Source: Pratylenchus scribneri (taxonomy: Eukaryota > Nematoda > Chromadorea > Rhabditida > Pratylenchidae). Taken from it: 64,000 nucleotides of DNA. Location: assembly GCA_030063045.1 (NCBI GenBank), contig JAQSEB010000001.1, positions 2,976,001 through 3,040,000 of the forward strand, given 5' to 3'. Position numbers and translations under genes: made by a program. Of the stretch, positions 10,153-44,188 are shown in pieces (the first letter of the stretch is position 1; each line of letters begins with the position of its first letter). The notes below the pieces were generated by a model that saw only the letters and a program-made list of their open reading frames with translations, ran no database searches and had not been told where the DNA came from.

Positions 10153-12161
10153 ATGGCGGACTCATTATTGGCTAATCGACCATTATTGCAATTTTTGACA
10201 ACCCAAAATGATGAATTGGTCCAACGTAAATATTTTAAATTGAATTATTTTACTTTTAAAAATATTATAGAATTATATGAACAAAAGCATTCAGTCATTG
10301 CCATTTATCGAATGTTGCCTTCACTGGCCCAACAATGCCTTCTTCAAATGATTTTCAGGAAAAATAGGTTTAATTTTCAATTTTATTATTTGTCAAATTT
10401 TTTTAAGTGATTGGCGTTCATGGACGAATGCACGAAATCAATTGGTTTTGTACAATTGTTTGGAATTACTTCACAAAATTAAAATATTAGAAGGCAATTT
10501 GGAAGATGAACTACAAATAAATGTAAAAATAAATTTAAATTAATTACCAATAAAATTAGAAATTTAAGTTGGATTTCAAAATGAATTTTATTTCGAGCAC
10601 TTTGACCAGTGTTTCCGAATTGAGTGGCTTTCGATCGCATCCATTGGATGAAAAATCACAAAAAGCAGCAAATAAAGATTTGATGGGGAAAAGTGTGGAA
10701 CGATGGGAAAGCATTCTTTGCTATTTGGCATTGCCCAGTGATTCAGCGGAGAAGGGCGTTTCCGAAACGACCCGATCACTTTTTGATTACATTGGCCTGG
10801 TCAAAGGACGTAATATTCCATTTTTTTTAATATTACTAAAAATTATTTTTTAGGTGCAAAAGAGCAGGAAATTTCCTCCGCCGGTTTTCAATTTCTTTTG
10901 TTGGGCCGATCCGAACAAATTTGGACATATTTAACGCATTATTTGCATTATTTGGCCTCAAAAGGGGAGGACATTTTGCCATTGTTGGAATTCTTTCTCC
11001 GCCTAATGTTGTGCATTCAACGGAGTGAAAGTAAGAAATTAATTAATTTAAAAAGTGCACAAATTTAGCTCAAATTTATCCAATTGTTTTTGAACAAAAT
11101 TGGCCCGAACCAATCCATGCCTTTATGCAAACCCTCCGCGAAATTGGACTTATTTTTATTCGAAAGAGGAAGGATGGGTATTTTTTAAATTATTTATAAA
11201 TTATTTAATTTATATTAAGTTGGTTTTTATTGACCCCATTGATGACTCAAATTGCCCAGGACGCATGTGGCCAGCTGGAAAATGGAAATGAAATTGATGG
11301 GAAAGGTGCAAGCAAAAGTGGATTTTTGATTGTTGAAACGAATTATAGGTTATTTATTTATTATTAAATTAAGGAAAATATTAAATGATGCTTCAAAAAT
11401 TAAAATACCATCCTTTAATTAATTCCAATTTTCAAATTTATTTTAGGGTTTATGCCTACACAAATTCCACCCTTCAATTGGCAATTTTGTCCACATTTGC
11501 CGACATTCTTTATCGTTTCCAGAATATTGCAATTTGTTTGTTTATAATTTTATTTCAATTAATTATTCACATTTTTAGGCCTTCTCACCAGAGATTCAGT
11601 CCGTCGAGCATTTCAAGTAATTCTTTTCTCCTTTTTAATTTCATTTTTTGGAATTTAGACGGGAATAACTGCCCGCCAAATCAGTCAATATTTGCGGGCA
11701 AATGCACATCAACAAATGGAAAATATTTCCACCCAAAATTCTGAACCAATAATTCCGGTCACCGTTATTGACCAAGTTAGTCCATTCCCATTCATTCCAT
11801 TTAAATTTGAATTACAGATTTACTTATGGGAACAAGAGCGAAAAAGATTCACTTGCAACGAAGGAGTTCTCTATTCGAATTTTGATTCCGGTGAGCAATT
11901 TAAATAAATTGAATGAAATTTATTATTAAATATTTTTTCATAGAATCCGATTTTGTGGCATTTCGTGATTTTGCCCTCCAAAACAAATATTCCCTTTGGC
12001 ATTGCAACATTCAAAAGGTTTGTTCATTGAAGAATGAATATTTTATTAATTAATTGCTAATTTAGATGATTATTGTAGACTCGGAATGGGATGAATTGAT
12101 GAGGAATTGGCTGAATGAATCGAAGGGAGGAAGAAGTGCAGAAGGAAGTTCAGGACGATAA
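10153..12161 (+). CDS. GTF2H4: TFIIH subunit p52 (Tfb2)
   Basis: A structural subunit of the TFIIH core that regulates the XPB ATPase in transcription initiation and nucleotide excision repair. ATG 10153 starts MADSLLANRPLLQFL. Family landmarks in order are AIYRMLPSLAQQCLLQM, ERWESILCYLALPS, SAGFQFLLLGRSEQIWTYL, FMQTLREIGLIFIRKRK, GFLIVETNYRVYAYTNS.LQLAIL (split by an intron at about 11347-11445), an exon with ITARQISQYLRANAH, and IYLWEQERKRFTCNEGVLYSNF. These match GTF2H4 segments such as GFIVVETNYRLYAYTES and ITDQIRLWELERDRL..TEGVLY. About eleven short introns. It ends with a Ser/Gly-rich tail and TAA at 12159-12161. No disruption was seen. Confidence 0.92.
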
Positions 12162-13121: not shown

Positions 13122-13225
13122 ATGGACTATCATGATGACACTTTAACAAATGCACATCGGAATAGGGCGGCCAGTCGAAAACTCTTTGAACATTGGAATA
13201 ATGCCAATGGAAATGGACGATTGGC
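13122..13225 (+). pseudogene. Left half of Shroom-like exon 1, cut by the Maverick
   Basis: ATG 13122 follows an acceptor-like TTTCAG. The frame reads MDYHDDTLTNAHRNRAASRK and on to GNGRLA, ending inside the 6-bp target duplication. Reading continues without a frame change in the sequence after the right end of the Maverick (39953 on). Past 13225 the frame runs on by chance through the terminal repeat for about 68 codons. Confidence 0.75.
13220..13225 (+). repeat. Target site duplication, left (ATTGGC)
   Basis: ATTGGC directly before the first base of the Maverick. An identical copy directly follows the right end at 39947-39952. Six bp is the expected Maverick/Polinton duplication size. Confidence 0.95.
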
Positions 13226-13460
13226 AGTAGGAAGTAACCCGGGAGTCGGTAAATCGGCGCTAAGGAAATCGATGGTTTTAAGCAGACATCTAATCGCCCA
13301 CTTGGAAGCGCCAGGATATTCGCTTCCTTTGCCTCGACCACCCAGGCGGCCGGCCAACAGATATCCTCTTAGTTTAACCAGTAAGTTAGAGAAACGAGAG
13401 GGATATTTACTAATGATGAGGGAAAGGGTATAGAACAAAAATTCCCAAGCAAATAGCCAC
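13226..13460 (+). repeat. Maverick left terminal inverted repeat
   Basis: Starts AGTAGGAAGTAACCCGGGAG and is the reverse complement of 39712-39946, with one C/T difference near 13444. Beyond 13460 weaker inverted similarity, broken by indels, continues to about 13755 and pairs with about 39530-39711. Confidence 0.95.
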
Positions 13461-15661: not shown

Positions 15662-18160
15662 ATGCCCTCAAAGAATATTTCCTCATCCTCTCGGCGGTCT
15701 TCCCCTCCTTCCTCTCCCCCTCCCTCAAAGCGTTCTCGCTTTGAAGAGACCGACCCGACCCTGGATGAATTTATGGAAATAATCGAGAATGGAAATCGTA
15801 CAATTCCCGGCCATCAAGTCCACAAAAGCCGTTCCACATTCCGTATTAAAAAATTCCCCGAACATCCTGAATCAATAATTGGTGGCATGTTCCAAGATGT
15901 CACAACCCGTGCCGTTTTATCCGCAACCCAAATCAAAGTGGACACCATTGGCTTTATGATTAATTCGCAAAACTTGGAAGAAGGGCAACCCATTTATTCC
16001 GGCTTCAAACCTCTGCATTTGAATACGATCGAATCACTCCTCAACCTTTTCCTCAAAGTCGAACAAAGCCGTAAAGCCCTCGGCAAATCCCTCTTTGATG
16101 TTCCTCTTGAAATTGAAGTCACCGTATTGCAACGTAAAGGCCTCTCTCAAAAAGTTCGAAAAATGTTTGGCGGTCGTTATGCATCCAAACGTAATTCCCT
16201 AAATATCACCCATGTCATTGCCGAAAACCAAAAAATGAGGATCCCGGATCAAAAGGGCAATCGTTGTTTATTCTATGCCCTTCATGCTGCCCTACAATAT
16301 CAAATTCGTGGATTCGATCAAAATGCCTGGAAATTTTATCGAAGAAGTGTACATGGTCAAAGAGGGAAAATTCATAGGGAGGTGGAACAATTGATGAGGG
16401 AATTAAAAATACCGTTATGGGAGAAGGAATATAATGCATTTGATTGGGTGCCCGACGTCGTCAACTATTGGAACAATATTTTACATGCCGGCCATTACAA
16501 AATTAAAGTATGGTTTTTTGGGCCTCGAGGACTCATGAAACCAATGTACAAATATGGAGCCGAAGACTATAATATTCAACTCGTTATTCATTGGGATGGC
16601 ACTCATTTTATCGGACTCTATCAAACTGGCTCACTTTTTGGAAGACCATATTGCCTCCAATGCGAAAAGTGTTATGATAAAGACTCCAATCATGACACCC
16701 GATGCAAAAGAAAATGTTTAAATTGTCTTCGAGTTGGCGCCTCATATCCTTGCAAACCCGAAGGCAACTTCAAATTAACATGTCAAAAATGCTCAAAAAT
16801 TTTTGTCTCCCGCCAATGTTATGAGCATCATATTTCCTCAAAATCCTGCAATTACTCAAAAAGATGTCCCGATTGTGGAGTTATTTGGGACACTCGTGTA
16901 CACACAAGGAACGGATGGGGGCCACACAATTGCTATGAGAGATATTGTAAAACTTGTTATGGATATCACAGAAAGGACGACAAACGAGGATGCTTTATTA
17001 AACCGCTAGAAGTCAAACCACCAAAACCATGCCGATTTATTGCCTTTGATATTGAAACAACAGAAATTAGAGAAATTATACCGCCCAAACGCCCATATGA
17101 GCCTCCAAAAATTCAAAAGAAACTGGTGCCCAATTTTGTTTCCGTCCGAATTGCCTGCCAGGAATGCATCAGTAATGAGGAGTGGAAATTGCAAAAAATG
17201 AGGACTCCATGTAGTGTGTGCGGTCCTGATCGTACCATTACATTTGGAACTCATCCCTATGCCCGAACGGATATTGAAAAATCCGTCATTTGCAATGATC
17301 CAATCAAATCCTTCACATTATGGCTCCTCGATGAACTTCCTCAAGATCGAAACTCATACATTTATAGTCATTATGGAGGCAAATTTGATATCCACTTTGT
17401 TATTGTCGAATTCTACAAATTAGGCTGCAATCCCGATTTGATTAGACGAGGCAATAAAATAATTACAATGGATGTGGAGAAGGAAAATGGCTACCAACTT
17501 CACTTTCGAGACTCATTCAATCTATTTCCAATGGCCCTCAAACAATTACCCTCTGCATTTGGCCTCCATGTTCCCGACAAAGGCTGTTTCCCGCATAAAT
17601 TGAATCGCCCCGAAAATTTTGACAAAATTATCCAAACAACAGCTGCCGATTATACCCCTGAAAATTGGAAAACTGAAGAATACGAACGATTTATGGAGAA
17701 ATATGAAAATGAGGAAAACAAAGACTTTTATTTAAATGAGGAATTACCCGCCTATTGCACAAACGATACGGATATCCTCATGGCCGCTCTCGTAGCCTTC
17801 CGTCAAGAATTTATGGAAATATCAAAGAGGATCAAACTGGATGAGGACGGGGATGCCGATCGGGCCGGACATCTCAAGGATCCTCATAATGGACTCGATC
17901 CTCTAACGACATCTGCCACCATTGCCCGAGCTTGCATTAATCTATTCAAAGCCAACCATCTTCCAACGCATCATTTGGCACTTGTTCCCGAACGTGGCTA
18001 TGATCGACGGGACAATCAATCCAAGACGGCGTATCAATATCTACGCTGGGTGTCTGAAGAAGAAATGGTCCATATTCAAACAGCATATTCGGAGGGCGGA
18101 GAAAAGCGGTTCGGACCGTACCCCGTGGATGGGTATATGAGGAACAGAACAGAATTATAG
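15662..18160 (+). CDS. Maverick protein-primed DNA polymerase B, N-terminal part with OTU-like protease region and exonuclease (frame broken)
   Basis: The frame is open from 15491, but the Met at 15662 follows the TATA box and begins a Ser/Lys-rich leader, so it is preferred. Numbered from 15491, residues about 255-380 contain GNRCLFYALHAAL (Cys259) and HWDGTHFIGLY (His372), an OTU-like thiol-protease layout reported for Polinton polymerases. Residues 388-500 hold a run of CxxC pairs (zinc-binding). The 3'-5' exonuclease follows: FIAFDIETTE (Exo I), HYGGKFDIHF (Exo II) and YCTNDTDIL (Exo III). The frame stops at 18158-18160, just after the conserved PVDGY start of the polymerase region. Homologous sequence continues at once in another frame, so the gene has a frameshift near 18135. 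It would copy the element by protein-primed replication. Confidence 0.88.
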   Translation: MPSKNISSSSRRSSPPSSPPPSKRSRFEETDPTLDEFMEIIENGNRTIPGHQVHKSRSTFRIKKFPEHPESIIGGMFQDVTTRAVLSATQIKVDTIGFMINSQNLEEGQPIYSGFKPLHLNTIESLLNLFLKVEQSRKALGKSLFDVPLEIEVTVLQRKGLSQKVRKMFGGRYASKRNSLNITHVIAENQKMRIPDQKGNRCLFYALHAALQYQIRGFDQNAWKFYRRSVHGQRGKIHREVEQLMRELKIPLWEKEYNAFDWVPDVVNYWNNILHAGHYKIKVWFFGPRGLMKPMYKYGAEDYNIQLVIHWDGTHFIGLYQTGSLFGRPYCLQCEKCYDKDSNHDTRCKRKCLNCLRVGASYPCKPEGNFKLTCQKCSKIFVSRQCYEHHISSKSCNYSKRCPDCGVIWDTRVHTRNGWGPHNCYERYCKTCYGYHRKDDKRGCFIKPLEVKPPKPCRFIAFDIETTEIREIIPPKRPYEPPKIQKKLVPNFVSVRIACQECISNEEWKLQKMRTPCSVCGPDRTITFGTHPYARTDIEKSVICNDPIKSFTLWLLDELPQDRNSYIYSHYGGKFDIHFVIVEFYKLGCNPDLIRRGNKIITMDVEKENGYQLHFRDSFNLFPMALKQLPSAFGLHVPDKGCFPHKLNRPENFDKIIQTTAADYTPENWKTEEYERFMEKYENEENKDFYLNEELPAYCTNDTDILMAALVAFRQEFMEISKRIKLDEDGDADRAGHLKDPHNGLDPLTTSATIARACINLFKANHLPTHHLALVPERGYDRRDNQSKTAYQYLRWVSEEEMVHIQTAYSEGGEKRFGPYPVDGYMRNRTEL

Positions 18161-19887
18161 AAGTCAACGGGTGCAACTTCCATGGTTGCCCCACTTGCTT
18201 CCCCGACGACCATCAAGTTCTGTATCCAAAAGAGAAAACAGCTCTATGGTTACGACAAAACGACGCAAGAAGAATTGCTTTCCTCGAAAAATTTGTGGAC
18301 AGAATCGACGTAATATGGACCTGTGAAATCGATAGAATGAAAGCAGCGAATCCCGAAATGAAGAAAAAATGTGAGGAATATGAGGACCGTTCCCCACTGG
18401 ACCCGAGAGAATGTTTTTACGGAGGGCGCACGGGTCCATCTACGCTATTTTATGAGGCAAAAGAGGGCGAAAAGATTAGCTACTACGACTTCACTTCTCT
18501 CTACCCGTACGTCAACTACATGCTTGAGGAATGGATGATGGGATATCCAGTCGGGCATCCCAAAGTTCATATCAAAAATGAGGAAGTCAATTGGACATCG
18601 GCAGCCGACAATCCGTACAAAACCGCCCTCCTCAAATGCTGGGTCGTGCCGCCCAGACAAATTGATGTGCCAATTCTTCCCATGAAAGTGAATAAAGATG
18701 GGGATGAGCGACTTTTGTTCCCACTTTGCGCAGCATGTGCCGAATATCATCCAGACGGAGGCTACTACCATAACTATCAATGCAGGCATACAGACGACAA
18801 AAGAGGATGGATGAGTTCGTGCACTTCTATTGAGCTGGATGCTGCGCTCAACGAGGGATATAGAGTCACAAAATTGATCCGCGTCTACGAATATGAGGGA
18901 GCCGATCGAGAATTGTTCAGAGGCTACATGAAAGAATTTTTGGCCCTGAAAATCCACGCGACCGGCTTCGACAAAAACATTGAAGGGAACACCGAAGAAG
19001 AGGAAAGATTCATTCGGGAGTGCAAACAAAAATTCGGCATAACAATCGATAGACTCCTAATGAAGATGGATAAAGGGAAGAGGGCGCTGGCAAAGTTGAT
19101 TGTGAACAATTTATGGGGCCGTTTTGCTATGAGGAATTGGGGACTCTACAAAACGGCCATCACCGATGATCCAGTCAAATTAGGAGAGCTATTTGACGAC
19201 AACACAATCGACATTATGAATATTGATGAGCTGGTTGAAGGCAATGAGGAAAGGCCTTCAGTCATTATGGTCACATATCTGACAAAACGAGGCTTCGTCG
19301 AGGAAAACGATGCCTCAAATGTGGTCATCAGCCTTTGGACAACTTCATGCGCCCGCCTCCTCCTTCTTCGATCCATGCAAAAAGTTGTGAGGAGTCCCGG
19401 ATGCAAACTTCATTATGTCGACACCGATTCATTGATCTTCTCCCATCCTGAAAATGATTGCCCTCTACAGCTTGGACCTCATGTGGGCGATTTTACAGAC
19501 GAACTTCCCGACCACGACATTTTGGAAGTTTGTTTTGGAGGTCCGAAGCAATATGGAATAAAAATGAGGAAGAAAAACCAACCAAATGCCCCTCTCGAAT
19601 ATATGCTCAAAATCCGTGGAATCACCCTCAACCATGATGTTATGCACAGACAAGGCCTGCAATATGACAAATTCAAGCAACTTGTCCTCAAATATGCCCA
19701 CACCGGAATCATCGACTCCTTTCCAATTTTCATCTCCAATTTTGTCAAATCAATACGGAAAGGTGCAATCGATGGGCCAATACTATATGTGGACACGATC
19801 AAACATTACAAGCCAGTGGTCAGTAAAGGAATTGTTAAGAAAGGAGATTACACAATTTATCATTTTGGCCAATACATTCCCTCATAA
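18140..19887 (+). CDS. Maverick DNA polymerase B, palm/thumb part (continues after frameshift)
   Basis: From about 18140 the shifted frame shows the family segment NGCNFHGCPTCFP. The first Met in this frame is at 18295. Counting from it, motif A is YYDFTSLYP (about residue 63-71), motif B is KLIVNNLWGRF (about 265) and motif C is YVDTDSLIF (about 373), followed by KIRGITL. All catalytic Asp residues are present. The ORF ends at 19887 with a TAA. The two parts together have the length of a normal Maverick polymerase, so only the frame is broken: either a decayed gene, an assembly error, or less likely a programmed shift. Confidence 0.9.
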
Positions 19888-20276: not shown

Positions 20277-21371
20277 ATGGAAGAAAAATTGGCTCAAATC
20301 TATAATAATCCCTCAAATCCCGCCGGTTTTACCGGAATCGATTCCCTCTTCAAAGAAGCCAAAAAAGTCGTTCCAAAAATAAGACGTAAAGATGTTGAAC
20401 ATTTCCTCCAAGGTCATCGTACATATTCCCTTACTAAATCCCGTCGTACTCGATTCAAACGAGTCAAAACCATTCCTCTCGGATATATGACCGATTTACA
20501 AGCCGATTTGGCCGATATGCAATCCTTGGCTGAGCATAATGACGGAAATCGATACATTCTCGTCGGTATTGATGTCCTCTCCAAAATGATGTTTGCCAAA
20601 CCAATAAAGTCAAAGAGAGCCGATGATGTCCTCGAGGCAATGCGCCAAATGATTGAAGAAATGCCTCAAAAACCTTGGAGAATATACACAGATTTGGGCA
20701 CCGAATTTAAAAATAAACAGTTGAAGGAATTTTTAAAGAATGAGGAAATTACAAAATTAATGGCCAGTTCCCCATTCCAAAAGGCCTCCTTAGCTGAACG
20801 CTCCATTCGTACCCTCAAACAGCGACTCTATCGTTATTTTCATCAATACCAGACTAAAGAATGGACCAAAGTCCTCCCAAAAATTGTCAAAGCAATTAAT
20901 CATTCCAAAAGTCGAGTCATTGGAATGAGACCCATCGATGTCACCCCGGATAATGCCCAAGCTCTATGGAATAAACAGTATGCAAATGACTTTTTTGGCA
21001 AAAATAAAGCCCCGCCAAAGTTTAAGAAGGGCGATTTTGTTCGAATGAGTCTGGACAAAGGCATATTCGAGAAGGGATACATTACCAATTGGGGCGATGA
21101 AATATTGGAAGTTGATCAAGTCAAGGACACATCAAAACCGTATACCTACAAAGTGAAAGACGAAAAGGGCGAAGAATTCAAAGGACATTTCTATGGCCCA
21201 GAATTGAGCAAAGTCCGGAAAGATGACAAGACCGAATATCGTGTGGAGAAAATATTGAGGACAAGAAAGAGAAAAGATGGAAAGAAGGAACACTTGATCA
21301 AATTTATTGATTATTCCGATCCTCTATGGATTCATGAAAAGGATTTGATTGATTTGAATAAAAAAGAATAA
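20277..21371 (+). CDS. Maverick integrase (DDE, retrovirus-type) with C-terminal chromodomain
   Basis: 364 residues, intronless. N-terminal region typical of Polinton integrases (TYSLTKSRRTRFKR). Catalytic core: QADLADM (Asp77), IYTDLGTEF (Asp139) and ASLAERSIRTLK (Glu174), so the second Asp and the Glu are 35 residues apart, the DD35E spacing of the rve family. An SH3-like KFKKGDFVRMS region follows, then a chromodomain-like end: YRVEKILRTRKRKDGKKEHL, then FIDYSDPLWIHEKDL. It joins the element ends to host DNA and produces the 6-bp duplication seen here. The start ATG lies about 40 bp from a TATA-like box. No frame break. Confidence 0.95.
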   Translation: MEEKLAQIYNNPSNPAGFTGIDSLFKEAKKVVPKIRRKDVEHFLQGHRTYSLTKSRRTRFKRVKTIPLGYMTDLQADLADMQSLAEHNDGNRYILVGIDVLSKMMFAKPIKSKRADDVLEAMRQMIEEMPQKPWRIYTDLGTEFKNKQLKEFLKNEEITKLMASSPFQKASLAERSIRTLKQRLYRYFHQYQTKEWTKVLPKIVKAINHSKSRVIGMRPIDVTPDNAQALWNKQYANDFFGKNKAPPKFKKGDFVRMSLDKGIFEKGYITNWGDEILEVDQVKDTSKPYTYKVKDEKGEEFKGHFYGPELSKVRKDDKTEYRVEKILRTRKRKDGKKEHLIKFIDYSDPLWIHEKDLIDLNKKE

Positions 21372-21553: not shown

Positions 21554-22210
21554 ATGGACTTGTCCTCATTTTCTGAAAAAGACCTAAAACTAAAACTTCC
21601 ATTCGGTATGATTCTTTCTGGACCAAGTTCCAGCGGGAAAAGTACCTTCCTCCTAAAATTTATTGCCGAAGCCACAGACTTAATTACTCCTCCTCCTCAA
21701 TCCATTCTCTACTGTTTTGGAGAAATGAGTTCAACTGTTCCAATTCTTCAAAAAGCCGGAGTAGCCGTTCATTCCGGAGTCCCAGATGAAGAAGTAATTA
21801 AAAGACAAGAAAAGCCATGTCTCCTCATTTTGGATGATTTATTACTTTCCATCTCCGAGTCATATTTGTCTTCATTGTTTACCGCAAAATCGCACCACCA
21901 GAATTTTGCCATTGTCTTTGTTACTCAAAATTTATTTGAGAAGAAAATAAAGGTAGCCAGACAGAATGCTCAATATCTAGTCCTCATGAGATCTCCAAAT
22001 TCGGCATTGGCTATAAGGAACATTGGTACTCAACTATTTCCTCGACAATTGGATTATTTCCTCGATGCCTATAAGCAAGCTACAAATCAACCCTATGGCT
22101 ATCTGATGATCGATATGCACGCAGCCAGTGATCCTCTGCTTCGCCTACGGACAAATCTATTTAAGGACGATGAATACCCCATAATATTCCATCCAAAAAC
22201 TATTTTGTAA
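21554..22210 (+). CDS. Maverick genome-packaging ATPase (A32/FtsK-HerA type)
   Basis: 218 residues, intronless. Walker A is SGPSSSGKSTFLLKF at about residues 22-36 and Walker B is CLLILDDLL at about 93-101, followed by a sensor-like VFVTQNLF. The overall length and the short gap between motifs fit the poxvirus A32-like packaging ATPases of Polintons, which pump DNA into the capsid. It is first in a tight cluster: the next ORF starts 7 bp after its stop. No frame break. Confidence 0.92.
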   Translation: MDLSSFSEKDLKLKLPFGMILSGPSSSGKSTFLLKFIAEATDLITPPPQSILYCFGEMSSTVPILQKAGVAVHSGVPDEEVIKRQEKPCLLILDDLLLSISESYLSSLFTAKSHHQNFAIVFVTQNLFEKKIKVARQNAQYLVLMRSPNSALAIRNIGTQLFPRQLDYFLDAYKQATNQPYGYLMIDMHAASDPLLRLRTNLFKDDEYPIIFHPKTIL

Positions 22211-24162: not shown

Positions 24163-24648
24163 ATGGTTCACGAAATATTCGATACAAACGCATTATCCTA
24201 CGAAGATTATATTCAGATTGGGAAGGGTTTGGATGAAGCCTTCCCAGTCTATAGAGGAGGACCAGTTTTCCAGAGAGGAACTGGTATTGGAGATGTATTC
24301 CGAGGAATATTGAGGTTTTTCATGCCTCTTATTCGACATGCCGGAACAGCTGTCAAAGATGAAGCCTTGAATACTGGTCAACGAATAATCGAACAAATCA
24401 AAGAGGGACAACCGTTGAGTCAAACAGTAATCGAGGAAGGCAAGAAAGGTCTCAAAAATGTAGCCGGACTCAAACAATTTGGCGGTGGACATCACCGTCG
24501 TCGTCATAGGAATCCACATCGGCCAAGAAGTATAAAAGGCCGACAATCTAATCCATTATCACACCAGACTATCATTAGTTCTGAAATTACCAAACCCATT
24601 GTCCATTCAAAGAAAAGGCTTCGTTCCGACGTGTTTGGACTCTACTAA
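24163..24648 (+). CDS. pVI/pX-like minor virion protein
   Basis: 161 residues, intronless. PVYRGGPVFQRGTGIGDVFRG then a hydrophobic/amphipathic FFMPLIRHAGTAVKDEALNTG stretch, a helical segment and a very basic tail (HHRRRHRNPHRPRS). The same plan (YRG..RG.G.G..FRG.FR...PL...A...EAL.TG) occurs upstream of capsid genes in Mavericks and adintoviruses. By position and amphipathic N-terminus it may act like adenovirus pVI, linking capsid and core or disrupting membranes (inference). Its TAA overlaps the ATG of the capsid gene (TAATG). Confidence 0.6.
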   Translation: MVHEIFDTNALSYEDYIQIGKGLDEAFPVYRGGPVFQRGTGIGDVFRGILRFFMPLIRHAGTAVKDEALNTGQRIIEQIKEGQPLSQTVIEEGKKGLKNVAGLKQFGGGHHRRRHRNPHRPRSIKGRQSNPLSHQTIISSEITKPIVHSKKRLRSDVFGLY

Positions 24649-25958
24649 TGGCTTTCTACAAAATTGATTCCGATAGTGTAAATTCCATAACAAATGCCCT
24701 CGATTTCTTTCAAATTCCTCCTACAAATGTTACAGTATCCTCCGCAAAGACTTTTGAAATTTTGACCAGTAATCCCCTCAACGATCCCCCTTATCATTTT
24801 AAAATCCATTCCTCCGATAATTATATTGATCCGACAAAATGTTATTTGCTCACCGAATTCCGAATCCGAAAAGAAAATGAACATGGACAGCTAGTCAATT
24901 TGGCAGCCAACGAGGATGTGGCTCCCATTCAAATGATTGGAAATACATTTATGCATAATATGCGAGTCCAAGTAAATGGTCGAGAAATATTCAATTCAAA
25001 TTCTTTAATGGCCTACAAATCCTATTTTACCCATGAACTTTCTTATTCGCCAACAGCCAAAACGTGTCATCTAAATGAGACCGGTTATTATGGATTCCAA
25101 GACGAAACATTAGAAGCCGGTACAGGACATGAATCGAGGAAGGCCTTATTCGCTGAAAGTAAAACTGCTCAATTCATTGCCAAACTCGATGCCGATATCT
25201 TTTGTCAACCTCTTTTCCTCCTCAACCATATCGAAATCGATATCGAGATTACTCCAAATGAATCAAAATTTGTCCTCGTTTCCCCAAATCCAAACGTAAA
25301 ATACCATTTGGAACTCCAAGCCTGTAAATTATATGTAAAGAAATTGTCCCTAATGGATGGTCTCAGTCTCGATATTGCCCGAAAATTGGAGCTGAAACCA
25401 GCCAGATATGCTGTCCGTAAATCAATGATGAAGTCCATGTTCATTAGTCAAGGCCGCTATGAATTCTCGGCAAACATATTCCAAGACCAAGTCCCTCGTC
25501 GAATCGTTTGCGGTCTTGTAGCCAATGCCGACTACGTTGGTCAATACTCAAAAAGTCCATTCAATTTCCAACCCTTTGATGTCCAAGAAATCTCAATTGT
25601 AGCCAATGGTCGTCAATTTCCCCAAACTCCATATGATTTGGCCTATACCCAAAATCGATATATGAGACCCTTCCATGATATGAACGAAGCCATTGGATTC
25701 GCTAATACATCCGAAGGAAATGGAATTACCTACGCCCAATATGGAAAAACCCATTGTATCTATGTTTTTAATCTAACGAATAGCGGAGAAGATCAAGGAG
25801 GACTTTTTGATTTGATCAAAAACGGAACAACTGCTATTCACATCCGATTTGGAACTGCTGTTCCCAATGGAGGATATATGCTCATAATAATGGGTGAAGC
25901 CGACTCTCTATTCATGCTCGACAAGTATAGAACAATTACTAGTGATACAACTGTTTAA
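24648..25958 (+). CDS. Major capsid protein (double jelly-roll, hexon-like)
   Basis: 436 residues, intronless. The N-terminus FFQIPPTNVTVSSAKTFEIL matches the start of Maverick/adintovirus hexon-like proteins (a V/IPPT...V motif). It is followed by YIDPTKCYLLTEFRI and APIQMIGNTFMHNMRVQVNG, corresponding to the strand-rich first jelly roll. The second half contains FNFQPFDVQEISIVANG and ends in a hydrophobic strand, GGYMLIIMGEAD. Assembly into icosahedral particles is inferred from the family. It is on the same transcript-like unit as the pVI-like gene (shared TAATG), and no separate promoter box is visible. Complete and unbroken. Confidence 0.82.
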   Translation: MAFYKIDSDSVNSITNALDFFQIPPTNVTVSSAKTFEILTSNPLNDPPYHFKIHSSDNYIDPTKCYLLTEFRIRKENEHGQLVNLAANEDVAPIQMIGNTFMHNMRVQVNGREIFNSNSLMAYKSYFTHELSYSPTAKTCHLNETGYYGFQDETLEAGTGHESRKALFAESKTAQFIAKLDADIFCQPLFLLNHIEIDIEITPNESKFVLVSPNPNVKYHLELQACKLYVKKLSLMDGLSLDIARKLELKPARYAVRKSMMKSMFISQGRYEFSANIFQDQVPRRIVCGLVANADYVGQYSKSPFNFQPFDVQEISIVANGRQFPQTPYDLAYTQNRYMRPFHDMNEAIGFANTSEGNGITYAQYGKTHCIYVFNLTNSGEDQGGLFDLIKNGTTAIHIRFGTAVPNGGYMLIIMGEADSLFMLDKYRTITSDTTV

Positions 25959-27519: not shown

Positions 27520-29142
27520 ATGTCCAATACAGTCATTGTTCATTTGCCTAGTAATTCAACGGATTATCCCGATAATAAATCGAATCATTATAGGGTTCAT
27601 CTCGGAAGAACACTCAAATTCCCAGGAGAATGGGTTTGCGGTCTTCATAGTATCTTTTTCCCCTACTCATGGCCTTCAACCATTGGTACATTGGATGACG
27701 ATTATATCGGAATTCATTACAATGAAGATGATATGATAAAAATCCCTGTACCAAAAGGGTCCTATTCAAAAATTGAGGATTTGATGACGTCACTTAATCA
27801 AACACTCATAGACTTTGGAGATGAAAATTACAAAAACAGAACAAGAAGAGCAATCGATAATATCCAATCACCTCCATTGGCCAAAACCGACAATTCAACC
27901 GTAACCCCTAAAAGTCCTCCCTTGCTCAAACCTTCATCTCCTCCTCTTAAGGATAATAAGACCAATCCGGAGCCTGAAAAAACATCTAATAAAAAACGAA
28001 AGACAGATGGTCTCGAATTCTTGTATGGAACAGCACCGCAAGTACCTCCTATAGAAAAGATGAGGAATTTACTAGTACCGGCTCCTCCTCCTCCTACTCA
28101 ATCTACCACTCAAAAATCGACTACCATTCAAGCTTCGGAATCTACGATTCCTCAACCTCCTTCGGAATCTACGATTCCTCAGTTACCTTCTGAGACCACG
28201 GCTCAGAAGCTTACTCCGGCTACGCCTTCGTCTGCTCCTCAAGAGTCGGCTACTCCTCTCCAAGAGGAGGCTAAGCCTCCTCCTCCTCCTCCTCCTCCAA
28301 AGAAAAAACCCAAGACTGATGGTCTCGAATTCTTGTATGGACCATTAGGAGAAGCTTTGAATGCGTTGAATTTGATTCTACCATCAGTTGAACCTCCACG
28401 TACTCCAAAAGATAAAACTCAACCTCCCTCGGAATCTGCGATTCCTCAGTTGCCTCCTTCCCAGTCGGCTACTCCTCCTCCTTCGGAGGAGGCTAAGCCT
28501 CCTTCTCCTCCTCTGGAGGAGGCTAAGCCTCCGCCAAAGAAAAAACCCAAGACCGATGGTCTTGAATTCATGTATGGACCAATAGGACAAGGTTTGAATA
28601 CATTGAGTCTATTCATTCCATCAGTTGAACCTCCACGTGCTCCAAAACCCAAGCCTCCGCCTATGACAGATGACATTATAAAATCAATGATCGATTCTGT
28701 GGAATTTCAATATAATCCGGATATTGAACGCTTCCGAGTTGTCTTCAATAATGAGAATATTACCCATCTGAGTCTATCTCAACAGTTAGGCTATGTCCTT
28801 GGATTTGAGAATCCTTCCTCAATTCATAATAATGAAGTGGCCAAATACAAATCTGATTTACGTGGAGGCTTTACATCATTTGCTGTCTATGCCAAAGGAC
28901 TAACTGGAAATATCATTATTGGGAATCTATTAAATTCTCTACTCCGTGTCGTCAGTTTGAATGGAGCCCAGCCTGGAGACTATGTGGAGAAGATTTATGA
29001 CTCACCACTCTATGTTCCAGTTTTGCCTAAAGAAGTCAGCGAAATTGAAATCAAAATAAGTACATTAGATGGAAGACCTATACCTTTTCAATATGGTAAT
29101 GTCATGATTGTATTGATTTTCAAAAAAGTAATAAATTTTTAA
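27520..29142 (+). CDS. Penton-like minor capsid protein with inserted Pro-rich repeats
   Basis: 540 residues, intronless. The N-terminal 110 residues (VIVHLPSNSTDYPDNKSNHY, then FPGEWVCGLHSIFFPYSW) and the C-terminal 160 (MIDSVEFQYNPDIERFRVVF, YKSDLRGGFTSFAVYAKGL, LYVPVLPKEVSEIEIKI, GRPIPFQYGNVMIVLIFKK) match the single-jelly-roll penton family of Mavericks. Between them, at about 110-380, is a Pro/Ser/Glu-rich insert with three copies of KTDGLEF(L/M)YG at about residues 161, 265 and 344. Two of these are followed by a similar LGEALNALNLILPSVEPPR-type segment. The insert is unusual for the family; it may form a flexible spike or fibre-like projection (inference). Confidence 0.8.
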   Translation: MSNTVIVHLPSNSTDYPDNKSNHYRVHLGRTLKFPGEWVCGLHSIFFPYSWPSTIGTLDDDYIGIHYNEDDMIKIPVPKGSYSKIEDLMTSLNQTLIDFGDENYKNRTRRAIDNIQSPPLAKTDNSTVTPKSPPLLKPSSPPLKDNKTNPEPEKTSNKKRKTDGLEFLYGTAPQVPPIEKMRNLLVPAPPPPTQSTTQKSTTIQASESTIPQPPSESTIPQLPSETTAQKLTPATPSSAPQESATPLQEEAKPPPPPPPPKKKPKTDGLEFLYGPLGEALNALNLILPSVEPPRTPKDKTQPPSESAIPQLPPSQSATPPPSEEAKPPSPPLEEAKPPPKKKPKTDGLEFMYGPIGQGLNTLSLFIPSVEPPRAPKPKPPPMTDDIIKSMIDSVEFQYNPDIERFRVVFNNENITHLSLSQQLGYVLGFENPSSIHNNEVAKYKSDLRGGFTSFAVYAKGLTGNIIIGNLLNSLLRVVSLNGAQPGDYVEKIYDSPLYVPVLPKEVSEIEIKISTLDGRPIPFQYGNVMIVLIFKKVINF

Positions 29143-29277: not shown

Positions 29278-29658
29278 ATGAATCCGTCCTTCCAAAATAA
29301 TCTTCCGTACCAAGCTCCATTCCCAAATAATCCTCCGTTCCCGAATAATTTCCAAAATAATCCTCCATATCCGAATCCTCAATTCCCAAATCCTCCATAC
29401 CATAATAACAACTTTCCGAATAATGAATCGACTACCTCCAAAAAACCTCATTGGAAATTATTCAAGGGAAAATATGTACTCATCTACTATCTCTGCGAGC
29501 AATGTCAAGACCGATTATATCATTCTCAAGACCGAATTATGGAAAAGGAGGACGGATGGGTCATTAAAATCGAAATGTGTCAAGATTGTGTCGATAAGAA
29601 TTGTAAGGCCACGACTGCCTTATCCAAACCATATGTCAAGAAACAAGAAGAATATTAA
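29278..29658 (+). CDS. Small protein with Asn/Pro-rich repeats and CxxC pairs
   Basis: 126 residues, intronless; the Met at 29278 is chosen because it follows the TATA box. The first 50 residues repeat PFPNN/PPYPN-type units. The rest has CEQCQDRLYH and CQDCVDKNC, a zinc-ribbon-like arrangement of four to five Cys. No family recognised. It could bind nucleic acid or stabilise virions; this cannot be decided from the sequence. Confidence 0.5.
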   Translation: MNPSFQNNLPYQAPFPNNPPFPNNFQNNPPYPNPQFPNPPYHNNNFPNNESTTSKKPHWKLFKGKYVLIYYLCEQCQDRLYHSQDRIMEKEDGWVIKIEMCQDCVDKNCKATTALSKPYVKKQEEY

Positions 29659-29762: not shown

Positions 29763-30281
29763 TTACATATGACTTGTGTATATTCCCATGGGAGTTCCGT
29801 CGTTGTTCATAAAATAGATGGTCCCCATGTTCTTATTTGAATTGAGCAATGCCGGTAGCTCAATCCGGAAGAATGTTCGTAGGACTCCAAATTGGTTGAC
29901 GGGCTCGATATTCTGCACAAAGACATAGGCATATCCTCGAGCTTGGAGGGCATATTTCCTCGAGGCCATGTCCCAAAGTTCTGAAGCCTTCTCAGAACTA
30001 AGCGGAGGTCCAAATTTGTACGTCCCGTTGTTGTTAAACAAATCGAGATCGTCCAAATATTTTCCTCCATGGGTCATTTCGAGGGTCTGGATTTTATGTT
30101 TGATGGCAAATACTTCGGCATGTTTTCGATTGGAGCCAGAGTAGAAGACTCCTCGATTATAGGTGGAAGAGAAATCCAATACTTCTCGAATAAAATACGA
30201 CAAATATTGGAAGACAAATTCGGGATCATCGGAGGTTGTCAATTCGAGGACAGTTGGGAAGGAGATGGAAATTTCGGACAT
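29763..30281 (-). CDS. Protein resembling a C-terminal domain of bacterial polymorphic toxins
   Basis: 172 residues, intronless. The pattern VFYSGSNRKHAEVFA, TLEMTHGGKYLDDLDLF, PLSSEKASELWDMASRKYA, ARGYAYVF and FRIELPALL resembles, from memory, a domain (YSG...TLEMT.GG..LD.L.LF...PL....A...W...S..YA..A.G...F...VF..VELP.L) found at the ends of Rhs-type and other bacterial secreted toxin-like proteins and in some eukaryotic genomes. Its activity is unknown to me. It lies between the CxxC protein and the PAZ protein and is divergent from the latter. No TATA box was found ahead of it. Whether it acts on the host, on competing elements, or in the virion is open. Confidence 0.45.
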   Translation of the reverse strand: MSEISISFPTVLELTTSDDPEFVFQYLSYFIREVLDFSSTYNRGVFYSGSNRKHAEVFAIKHKIQTLEMTHGGKYLDDLDLFNNNGTYKFGPPLSSEKASELWDMASRKYALQARGYAYVFVQNIEPVNQFGVLRTFFRIELPALLNSNKNMGTIYFMNNDGTPMGIYTSHM

Positions 30282-30459: not shown

Positions 30460-30467
30460 TATAAAAG
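30460..30467 (+). promoter_or_regulatory. TATA box upstream of PAZ gene
   Basis: TATAAAAGCCCGAAAT, 55 bp before the ATG at 30522; the same layout as the penton gene box (TATAAAAGGACCGAAA), tying this gene to the element's own expression programme. Confidence 0.55.
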
Positions 30468-30521: not shown

Positions 30522-31013
30522 ATGAAAACTGTCCTCCAAGAATGCCTTAATCTCCTCAAATGCAAAAATAATCAATTGGATTATAAGATTTCTCATCCCG
30601 AATCCCGAGAGAAATTAATCAAACATTTAATTGGCCATAGAGTCGAAACAACCTATGAAGATCGTAATGGCTTCAAGAAAATATTCACAATTGGCGGATT
30701 AAGCCGTCAAGGAGCCGATTCCATATATGCCTACGGAAAATTGTCCCGAACCTTCAATGTAACTGTCTCCCAGCATTTCTTTTCCCGACATAATATTCGT
30801 CTCAAACACCCCTATCTTCCATGTATCATTGAAAAACATGGACCAAATTCGGAGGATCGTTATTACCCCTTGGAATTACTCAAATTTATCGATGAGGAGG
30901 ACCAATGTAGATGTGCCGATATCTTTGAATTATTCCAACTACAAATTGAGGAGGAGGAAATTGACGATGACTCTCAATGTTCATTTTGTTCTTATTGTTT
31001 ACAATACCATTAA
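30522..31013 (+). CDS. Stand-alone PAZ-domain protein (Argonaute-type PAZ, no PIWI)
   Basis: 163 residues, intronless. Residues about 33-124 follow the Argonaute PAZ pattern: LIGHRVETTYEDRNGFKKIF, then IGGLSRQGAD, VTVSQHFFSRHNIRLKHPYL then PC, and YYPLELLKFID. Compare the family scheme V.T.Y..R.YK+.GLS...A...F......VSV.+YF...YNI.L+YP.LPCL......NYLP+E+C.IV. The PAZ domain binds the 3' ends of small RNAs. The remaining 40 residues are acidic (EEEEIDDD) with a CSFCSYC cluster. No N, MID or PIWI domain is encoded nearby. It has its own TATA box and no intron, like the virion genes. Role inferred: binding host small RNAs, thereby interfering with or redirecting RNA silencing. Confidence 0.85.
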   Translation: MKTVLQECLNLLKCKNNQLDYKISHPESREKLIKHLIGHRVETTYEDRNGFKKIFTIGGLSRQGADSIYAYGKLSRTFNVTVSQHFFSRHNIRLKHPYLPCIIEKHGPNSEDRYYPLELLKFIDEEDQCRCADIFELFQLQIEEEEIDDDSQCSFCSYCLQYH

Positions 31014-39711: not shown

Positions 39712-39946
39712 GTGGCTATTTGCTTGAGAATTTTTGTTCTATACCCTTTCCCTCATCATTAGTAAATATCCCTCTCGTTTCTCTAACTTACTGGTTAAAC
39801 TAAGAGGATATCTGTTGGCCGGCCGCCTGGGTGGTCGAGGCAAAGGAAGCGAATATCCTGGCGCTTCCAAGTGGGCGATTAGATGTCTGCTTAAAACCAT
39901 CGATTTCCTTAGCGCCGATTTACCGACTCCCGGGTTACTTCCTACT
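39712..39946 (-). repeat. Maverick right terminal inverted repeat
   Basis: Reverse complement of 13226-13460 with about one mismatch. It ends ...GGGTTACTTCCTACT immediately before the ATTGGC duplication. Confidence 0.95.
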
Positions 39947-39952
39947 ATTGGC
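39947..39952 (+). repeat. Target site duplication, right (ATTGGC)
   Basis: Identical to 13220-13225. Confidence 0.95.
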
Positions 39953-41203: not shown

Positions 41204-44188
41204 CAGGGATGCGATCTCCAAAACCCAAAAACTCGGCATCCGGGTCTAAAAACTCGGAAAAAACTCGGCAAAAATTTTTAAAAACTCGGCAAAAAACTCG
41301 GCACTTATAAATCGTATTAAAATGCAATATAAAAGCTTTAAAAATATTTATACTTTATATTTTTCTTGTGATTTGACTTGTTTGAGCAATTCAGGTTGTG
41401 AAATAAAGATATCATATGCTTGAATACAATTAAAATCGGCATTTGTTTTGATAGAAATAAGAGAATTGATTAATTTAGATTCTATTTTGTTCCGTTCATC
41501 GGTTTTGAGATTTTTTAAGATCGAAAAAATAGATTCACAATATGAATTGGAAGGAAAAAACGAGAATAAAATAACGACTAACTTTTTGATGAGCACGAAA
41601 TTTTTGTTTTTAAACAATGTTGTCCACCGTTCTTCAATTTCTTTGTCTTCAAAACCGGTTCCTGTTAATTTGTCCAACAATTCATTTAATTCAGCAACCT
41701 CATTGAATAAATTGTCCAATTCATCTGGAGTACGGCCGCAAAATTTTTTGTAAGCATTGGAAATTTTTTGAATTGTTGGCCGTTCCTCAAAAATCAGCCA
41801 ATCCGAAACAAAGTCCGCTAATTCATTGACGTGCGCACTCCATTTGTTCAAATATTCAAGTGAATTTTCGTAAAAGTTCTAAATAAAATAATTGGAATAA
41901 CAACAAATAATTAAACAGCTAACCAAAAATTCAGCTTTCAAGCGCCCACAAATGTCCAAAGAGCCTTCCTCCTCAAGCCGAATTAATCGTTCATTTGCCT
42001 CATTTCCAAAATAATTCTCATCATGCGCCTGTTGAATTTTTCTTTTCAATCCGAGAAGTGCTTTCATCATTTCGGGAAAGGCCAAATTTTGCTTCTAATC
42101 AGAATTTCCAATTTTAATTTCTTTTATTATTAATTTAATACCTGGCTTATCAAATTAAATTTGTTGAATTGTCCCAATGCAAACGAACAAAAGGAAAATA
42201 AAATCCTATATTCCTCTGCTTTTGGCGTCAATTCATCATTGAAAATATTTCTCATAAATTTTGGACATTCCGCATTTCTGCATGATCTGAAGTATGATTC
42301 AATAGCCTCCCATTGGCCACAAATTTGATCGCATATTCCTTTCAATGAGAGCCATCTTGTCGGACAATAATCGGGGAATTTGAGAATTTTAATCTAAAAT
42401 TTAACAAAAATAAAATAAAATTAAAAAATATTTACTTGAAAATTTGTTGCAAATTTCTTGTAATATTCCCAGCGTATAGCTGTGTTAAAATGCCCGCATA
42501 ATTTTGTGCAAAAATTTTCAATATCATAATTCAGTTGCTCAACCGCATGCCTGATTGAATTGTTATCAATATGCGATACACAGCCAATACCATTCAATGA
42601 TGGATGGTCTTAAAAAATTTAAATCAAAATAAAAATTTTTATTAAATTACCTTGTTTTAATAAATAGAACAAATTGTTTTGACCTCTGCGATGAAGCCCG
42701 CCGAAATTGGCATTTGTATTGTCGGCCGTCAGTGCTGCCATTTTCGTCAATTCCAGGTCATTTTCAATTAAAACTTGCTTCAATAAATTGGCCATATCGA
42801 CCGCTTTTTCACTCGACTCATCCACAATTTTTAGCAAACGTTGTTTCGTTCCTTTTTCAATGTCAAAATATCTATTTAAAAATCTTTCATTTTTTTAAAT
42901 TCAATTCAAACCTAATGACAACTGCATGAAATCGTTTTTGTTGTATTTCCGTCGAATCAATTCCAATTGAATAGTAGCCTCCATTTAATTTTATTCGGCT
43001 TAAAAAACGCTTTTGCAAAAATGGATAAATCACTCCTTAAAAATAATTATTTTTTAATTTCAATATTTGGTAAAAATTACCATTAATAATGGCCGTTGTT
43101 TTGTCACGTGCAGATGCAAAGTCCTCTGCTTGTTTGAACAATTTTGGAAGCAGTTCGCTGGTGCAGTTTGAACTTTGCATAGAAAAATTGTGAGCGCCAG
43201 AATGGAAAGCCATCAAAATTTCAGCTAGCAATACGCTTTTTTCTTCATTTTCCTTTAATTAAATTAATTTTTTATTTTTTTATAAACAAAATAAACCGTT
43301 CTTTTCTTGATGAATTGATTAATTGTCTGATTTTTTCGAAAATCAGCAAGACGATCTTTGTGCTTTTTTGTCTTTATATGATCATTGATTAACGTTTGAC
43401 CATTTTTGCTCAATGCCAAATCACTATTACATGCTTTACAAAAAAAATATCCGCTCCTTTTGCTGGCCTCAATTGTTTCTTCTGGATTTGCATAATTTGT
43501 TAAAAATTTTGAATGCCCTCTTCCGGGTAATTTGTGCGACTTCTTCCTCTTTTTTGGTGGAGAAGAATCCTAAAAATTTATTCTGTATTTATTTAAAATT
43601 TTTCTAACTTTTTGTAATTCATTTTCATCAGCTTCGTCTTCACTATTTGTTTCAATTTCTTGTTCTTGTGCTTCTTCAGCCTCGGAAATGGCTTCTTCTT
43701 CATTTTGCTCAGTTGTTTTTTCAGAATTTGTTGTTGAAATCGAAATATTCCGAACGAAATTAAGTAAATTTGATTGTTTTTGCGCCATTTTTCTGTAAAT
43801 AGAAATTATTAATAATATATTTTTGTTGTTAATCAAATCCAATTAATTTTTAAGAAGCAGTAAATATTTCATTTTTAATTGCTTCTAACTTAGTCAAAAA
43901 ATTAATTCATAAGTAATGAGAAATTCATAGAACACAGATCAATATTATGAAGAAAAAATAGATAAAGAAAAAGAAAAATTGAGAAAAATGAAATGACAGA
44001 CAAGAAAATTGTGGATAAATATTCAATTTTTGGCAATTATTATAAGAAATTTAAAAAATCGGCAAAAACTCGGCAAAATATGAAAAACTTGGCAAAAAAC
44101 TCGGCACTGACAAAAACCCGGCAAAAACTTGGCAGGGTCATCAAAAACTTGGCACGCGCCAAGTTTCCACGGTATTATCGCATCCCTG
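41204..44188 (-). mobile_element. hAT DNA transposon, complete, 2985 bp
   Basis: 12-bp terminal inverted repeats CAGGGATGCGAT (41204-41215) and ATCGCATCCCTG (44177-44188), with identical flanking 8-bp duplications GGGGTAGA at 41196-41203 and 44189-44196. Both ends carry subterminal repeats of AAAACTCGGC and AAAACTTGGC (41225-41305 and 44055-44155), probable transposase binding sites. One transposase gene on the minus strand. Confidence 0.95.
41348..43789 (-). CDS. hAT transposase with BED-type zinc finger
   Basis: Start MAQKQSNLLNFVRN at 43787-43789, about nine exons with short introns. An acidic leader is followed by a BED/C2H2-like finger (YFFCKACNSDLALSKNGQTL, then HIKTKKHKDRL), the DDE core with YSIGIDSTEIQQKRF and LTADNTNANFGGL, then PTRWLSLKG, and a C-terminal hAT dimerisation region (LVVILFSFFPSNSYCESIFS, then LKTDERNKI). 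No stop or frame break was found, so the element may be active. About 680 residues. Confidence 0.88.

Follow-up and report, generated by a model that had tools for sequence, protein, structure and literature searches.

Mavericks, also called Polintons, are the described elements closest to the locus analyzed here; they carry terminal inverted repeats (TIRs), a 6-bp target site duplication (TSD), a family B DNA polymerase, an integrase, and a packaging ATPase. The element in our window, a 64,000-nucleotide stretch of a Pratylenchus scribneri contig, shares all of these features and adds two genes, one encoding a stand-alone PAZ domain and the other an ADP-ribosyl-cyclase-like protein; to our knowledge, neither is part of the Polinton gene set. 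The PAZ protein is in turn closest to the PAZ domain of Argonautes (PF02170; human AGO2, PDB 8thq), with which it has in common the fold, the domain length, the domain start, a net basic charge, and the equivalents of H316 and, mostly, of R315. Unlike an Argonaute, it lacks a PIWI domain and leaves no space for N or MID, and unlike the AGO2 PAZ, it has changed F294 and L339 positions and an added acidic, Cys-rich tail. PAZ-only proteins of the same family are already in sequence databases under automatic names: the UniRef “PAZ domain-containing protein” entries of Meloidogyne and Globodera are named by domain alone and are known here from proteins without genomic context. In expected effect, the nearest parallel is 340R of IIV-6, a DNA virus; according to the available part of its report, 340R binds siRNAs and blocks RISC loading (PMC4231766). 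The same effect, siRNA binding away from RISC, is expected of the Maverick PAZ protein, which likewise comes from a DNA virus-like agent that has an invertebrate host. However, 340R uses a double-stranded-RNA-binding domain and needs no 3′ overhang (PMC4231766, same part), whereas PAZ, a domain of the host effector itself, would recognize the 3′ end. Among the matches listed in the literature searched, which lay largely outside subscription papers, there was no report of PAZ in a Maverick, nor was there one in the available parts of PMC5934874, PMC8288018, PMC4901422, and PMC6361761.

The window element is a 26.7-kb Maverick/Polinton. It is complete at both ends, because perfectly complementary (100%) 235-bp TIRs (left, positions 13226 to 13460, forward strand; right, 39712 to 39946, reverse strand) are flanked by the TSD ATTGGC (13220 to 13225 and 39947 to 39952) and enclose polymerase, integrase, and ATPase genes. 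Since the terminal repeats are identical, a recent insertion is suggested. The Maverick context proposed in an earlier note on this DNA is thus borne out, with all three enzymes scoring above their Pfam cut-offs: a family B DNA polymerase of the organellar/viral type (15662 to 19887, forward; PF03175, E = 6e-20 and 2.9e-19), a retroviral-type integrase (20277 to 21371, forward; rve, E = 1.1e-8, 35.7 bits versus a cut-off of 32.6), and an A32-like packaging ATPase (21554 to 22210, forward; Pox_A32, E = 1.8e-5, 24.8 bits versus 22.8). Two more forward-strand ORFs have fitting size and place. That at 24648 to 25958, which matches no Pfam family and lies near PAZ in several loci, is, by analogy with Polinton gene content, a putative major capsid protein; that at 27520 to 29142, also without a Pfam match, is a putative minor capsid/penton protein. 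The polymerase is split into two ORFs (15662 to 18160 and 18337 to 19887), and a similar spacing between the two matched parts was seen in six other loci.

The PAZ gene (30522 to 31013, forward) is an intronless ORF of 163 codons, located exactly where the earlier note had placed it and containing all three PAZ motifs quoted there. Its PAZ identity, which had been set beforehand as refutable, was upheld: Pfam PAZ PF02170 scored 41.7 bits (E = 1.3e-10; cut-off, 28.8) over residues 27 to 126, the best PDB sequence matches were the human AGO2/AGO1 PAZ domains (E of about 1e-6), and the domain proved Argonaute-type by both profile and fold. The domain begins at protein residue 1, extends to residue 126 (30522 to 30899), and superposes on AGO2 residues 227 to 350. 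Residues 127 to 163 (30900 to 31010) form a C-terminal tail rich in Cys and His, modeled with low confidence (pLDDT of <50 for residues 129 to 136 and 138 to 163); the PAZ part has a net charge of +7 and the tail −11, consistent with the acidic Cys-rich tail noted earlier. Across 41 copies, the median PAZ net charge is +8, versus +5 in AGO2. The gene also has the TATA box attributed to it, TATAAAA at 30460 to 30466 (forward), which precedes the ATG by 62 bp. Among the 38 PAZ copies with enough upstream sequence, 34 have a TATA-like motif in the 160 bp before the gene, compared with 18% of random 160-bp windows. When ten related proteins were scanned with PF02170, seven scored above the cut-off and three (P0007, P0010, and P0015) below it. 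Searches with the window protein gave no fold match in BFVD at an E of ≤0.001 and, in IMG/VR, 29 pattern matches with no relative among them.

This gene is not confined to one element. With 150 of 296 candidates scored, all 150 matched, so the 227-Mb genome holds at least 150 matches to the window PAZ protein. There is no internal stop in 124 of them; the other 26 contain stop codons, and part of the family has therefore decayed. Twenty loci, picked from the best PAZ matches, were read at 8.5 to 9.9 kb; other genes of the window element, in differing order, were present in 19, the sole exception (L012) lying near a contig end. Using the window integrase as a query, we found at least 112 integrase matches (112 of 438 candidates scored), 88 of which have a PAZ match within 15 kb, and a second integrase query gave at least 121. 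The union of both queries comprises at least 203 integrase loci; PAZ loci that lack a downstream PIWI number at least 171. A Maverick integrase lies within 15 kb of 120 of these 171 PAZ loci, and 119 of the 203 integrase loci are near PAZ; about 2.7% of the genome is that close to an integrase. The same PAZ gene, for which the earlier note had proposed a search, is thus present in many other Mavericks. No PAZ was found within 15 kb of 84 of the 203 integrase loci and no integrase for 51 of the 171 PAZ loci; part of these unpaired loci may be missed matches. We conclude that nematode Mavericks recurrently carry this gene, which encodes a single Argonaute-type PAZ domain and a disordered acidic tail. 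A small ORF of the window with paired Cys motifs (29278 to 29658), which has no Pfam match above cut-off, has related stretches in 18 of the 20 loci read.

The Maverick PAZ genes are distinct from the Argonaute genes of the same genome. No PIWI match was listed by Pfam for the 19 other window ORFs scanned. A genome-wide PIWI search gave at least 105 matches with 130 of 162 candidates scored, so the absence of PIWI is not absolute; within this scope, a PIWI match lies within 10 kb of only 2 of the 150 PAZ matches, upstream in both cases, whereas in Argonautes it lies downstream. The Argonaute arrangement, with PIWI downstream of PAZ within 10 kb, was found for none of the 150, in agreement with the PIWI-free protein described at the outset. 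The Pfam PAZ profile gave 138 matches in the genome, 51 of which do not overlap matches to the window protein, and 29 of these 51 have a same-strand PIWI within 10 kb. Only 1 of 29 Argonaute-type PAZ exons is within 15 kb of any integrase found, and none of the 29 is within 25 kb of the matches (at least 112) to the window integrase. On a phylogenetic tree of 35 rows (21 element rows out of 47, with near copies removed, 10 host rows, and 4 others), host Argonaute PAZ rows are split from the element and other rows with a branch support of 98/99. Long branches meet on this tree, which does not place the donor Argonaute; a host Argonaute is most likely the source of the Maverick domain. Argonaute counts made from PAZ matches alone can be inflated by such elements. 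In the available part of the Meloidogyne Argonaute paper (PMC5934874), PRG-1/2 orthologues are reported to be absent from Meloidogyne, and there is no mention of PAZ-only genes.

Two PAZ subfamilies can be distinguished. Subfamily A, the window type, has PAZ followed by the C-terminal tail; in subfamily B, PAZ is nearer the C terminus and is preceded by an acidic N-terminal extension. Sequence databases contain B proteins of M. enterolobii, M. incognita, Globodera rostochiensis, and G. pallida, and a named relative of the window protein is also present in Meloidogyne hapla. The two B loci that were read (L072 and L073, 92% alike) both adjoin polymerase, integrase, and ATPase genes, and their Maverick genes are 26 to 44% identical to those of the window in the main matches. 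Because the B genes adjoin such divergent genes in both loci, a second, deeply divergent Maverick lineage also has PAZ; PAZ genes are thus found in two divergent Maverick lineages, one subfamily in each. An ORF of 255 to 257 amino acids directly follows the B-type PAZ gene (5176 to 5949 in L072; 4652 to 5419 in L073).

Purifying selection on the PAZ domain is strong. The dN/dS comparison across copies that the earlier note had called for gave a median omega (Nei-Gojobori) of 0.09 for the PAZ part, with no value reaching 0.5, in the 141 of 820 pairs with 0.02 < dS < 1.5, pairs that are not independent; omega is 0.31 between the window PAZ and its nearest copy, and the median for the tail is 0.345 (99 pairs). 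An alignment with AGO2 covered 41 A domains, some of them near copies, and 9 B domains. The H316 position is His in all 50 copies, and the R315 position is Arg or Lys in 44 (35 of 41 A and 9 of 9 B). The subfamilies differ at H271, which is Tyr in 41 of 41 A domains and His in 9 of 9 B domains, and at R277, which is Lys or Arg in 39 of 41 A domains and in none of the 9 B domains. The L339 position is Tyr or Phe in all 50. In the window protein, F294 and L339 of AGO2 align to I68 and Y115, the F294 match being alignment dependent with Tyr71 close by. The available part of one report states that F294A plus L339A in AGO2 promotes miRNA 3′-end modification and exposes 3′ ends (PMC7265490). With H316 and R315 retained and the F294 and L339 positions different, the pocket is partly kept and remodeled; loss of its residues in all homologues, the other outcome that the earlier note had named as refuting, did not occur.

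The neighbor of the PAZ gene, across a 240-bp region and head to head with it, is the ADP-ribosyl-cyclase-like gene (29763 to 30281, reverse), whose 172-amino-acid product is short for the family. Its assignment rests on a Pfam PF02267 score of 26.8 bits (cut-off, 25), on profile matches to 5bnf (the sequence of 5bni, porcine CD38; E = 0.003) and Aplysia cyclase (E = 0.07), and on a model of modest quality (pLDDT of 70.8 from five sequences), for which all nine Foldseek matches at an E of ≤0.001 are titled ADP-ribosyl cyclase/CD38, ADP-ribosyl hydrolase, or NADase. A large protein search found only four proteins at an E of ≤1. Among relatives, P0016 exceeds the PF02267 cut-off, P0017 and P0018 do not reach it, and P0019 gave no match. 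The five-row alignment shows Glu67, Trp102, and Glu140 without variation, and these may be the active-site Glu and Trp of CD38. The gene is head to head with PAZ, 221 to 605 bp away, in 44 of 55 genomic matches, whereas about 0.15 such pairings would be expected by chance; conversely, 44 of the 150 PAZ matches have this partner. On the cyclase side, the intergenic region of the window yielded no TATA motif. Six cyclase-like copies with identical scores lack PAZ (C42:2876040, C57:3996, C101:3692, C127:3855, C172:187205, and C232:49351), and at least four of these have a contig end no more than about 4.5 kb away, a hint of a subtelomeric repeat.

How might a lone PAZ domain serve a Maverick? We regard it as a host-derived counter-defense candidate of a virus-like element, its function being unproven. 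In the explanation that we favor as the simplest, and to which we give an even chance, a Maverick captured the PAZ domain of a host Argonaute, keeping the part that grips the guide and not the part that cuts. The protein would grip host small RNAs by their 3′ ends, or siRNA duplexes by their 3′ overhangs; without MID or PIWI, RNAs so held could not be used and would be kept from loading or exposed to trimming, and silencing of the element would be weaker during its virus-like phase. RNA binding, suppression, and the timing of expression are all conjectural here. The Argonaute-type profile and fold, the Maverick linkage in two lineages, the low omega, the invariant His and mostly basic R315 position, the net positive charge, the 340R precedent, and the frequent pairing with a second host-directed-looking gene count for this explanation; the F294 and L339 changes, the missing basic R277 residue of subfamily B, the unpaired loci, and the decayed copies count against it. 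Isolated PAZ domains are usually weak RNA binders, and sequestration would therefore depend on high expression or on a contribution from the tail.

The tail could act in another way. GW/WG hooks dock on Argonaute, and an acidic, Trp-bearing tail might dock the protein on a host Argonaute, where PAZ would compete for the 3′ end of the guide and leave it open to decay. In 27 nonredundant tails out of 41 (one of the 27 being a single residue), which are acidic and variable, Glu and Asp make up 26.5% of residues, Trp is present in 23, and GW/WG occurs 19 times, versus 5.0 in shuffles (0 of 2,000 as high). However, related tails inflate this count, GW/WG is found in only 12 of the 27, and the window tail has no Trp. 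CxxC, which the window tail does have, is equally enriched (28 versus 5.2 in shuffles; 14 of 27 tails) and points instead to a zinc-binding role. On these grounds, we consider such a decoy unlikely; the tail is possibly either a zinc knuckle or an Argonaute hook. A CSL zinc finger (PF05207) was rejected for the window tail, with 15.4 bits versus a cut-off of 29.2, and was not listed for the close relative P0003.

PAZ domains bind 3′ ends generally, and the protein could instead serve the element's own nucleic acids, holding single-strand or guide-RNA 3′ ends in replication, packaging, or integration; its many copies, conserved like a core gene, would fit. A core function sits poorly with the 84 integrases near which no PAZ was found, in the same and related lineages, with the gene's own TATA-like motif, with its shuffling neighbors, and with its frequent divergent partner, which is not a replication gene but an enzyme that looks directed at the host, and we think it quite improbable. 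Another alternative is conversion of the fold into a protein-binding or structural module without any nucleic-acid role, for which the altered F294 and L339 equivalents and the R277 position of subfamily B could be cited; the invariant His at H316, the net basic domain, and the strong constraint make us very doubtful of it. A final alternative, that the ORF arose by chance or is a broken piece of a host Argonaute, would account for the resemblance to Argonaute PAZ and for the 26 matches with stops; it is already contradicted by the 98/99 tree split, the near absence of Argonaute PAZ from the vicinity of integrases (0 of 29 at 25 kb, 1 of 29 at 15 kb), the 124 stop-free matches, and the low omega, which leave it a negligible probability.

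The capture of PAZ as a silencing antagonist, if true, would define a new class of antagonist, built from the silencing effector itself. If small RNAs are bound, mobile elements would have turned the host's guide-gripping domain against RNA silencing, and the contest between Mavericks and nematode small RNAs would become directly testable. More tentatively, and with less confidence than we place in the capture itself, the head-to-head genes could form a two-gene counter-defense island, in which PAZ would disarm small-RNA silencing and the divergent, NAD-consuming cyclase-like enzyme would act on host signaling; the PAZ half of such an island is shared between two deeply split Maverick lineages of one genome and with relatives in cyst nematodes, and would accordingly be old.

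The PAZ gene might also help to explain the spread of Mavericks to at least 203 integrase loci in this genome. A PAZ-like match at C46:518671-518808 was reported within a 3,606-codon open frame, perhaps a masked stretch; in three 1.5-kb pieces further on, every frame had at least three stops. On contig C138, three PAZ matches with identical scores (at 42279, 80688, and 119097) are spaced ∼38.4 kb apart, and on contig C63, three more (at 11712, 31857, and 52001), again with identical scores, are ∼20.1 kb apart, suggesting either Mavericks in tandem or an assembly effect.
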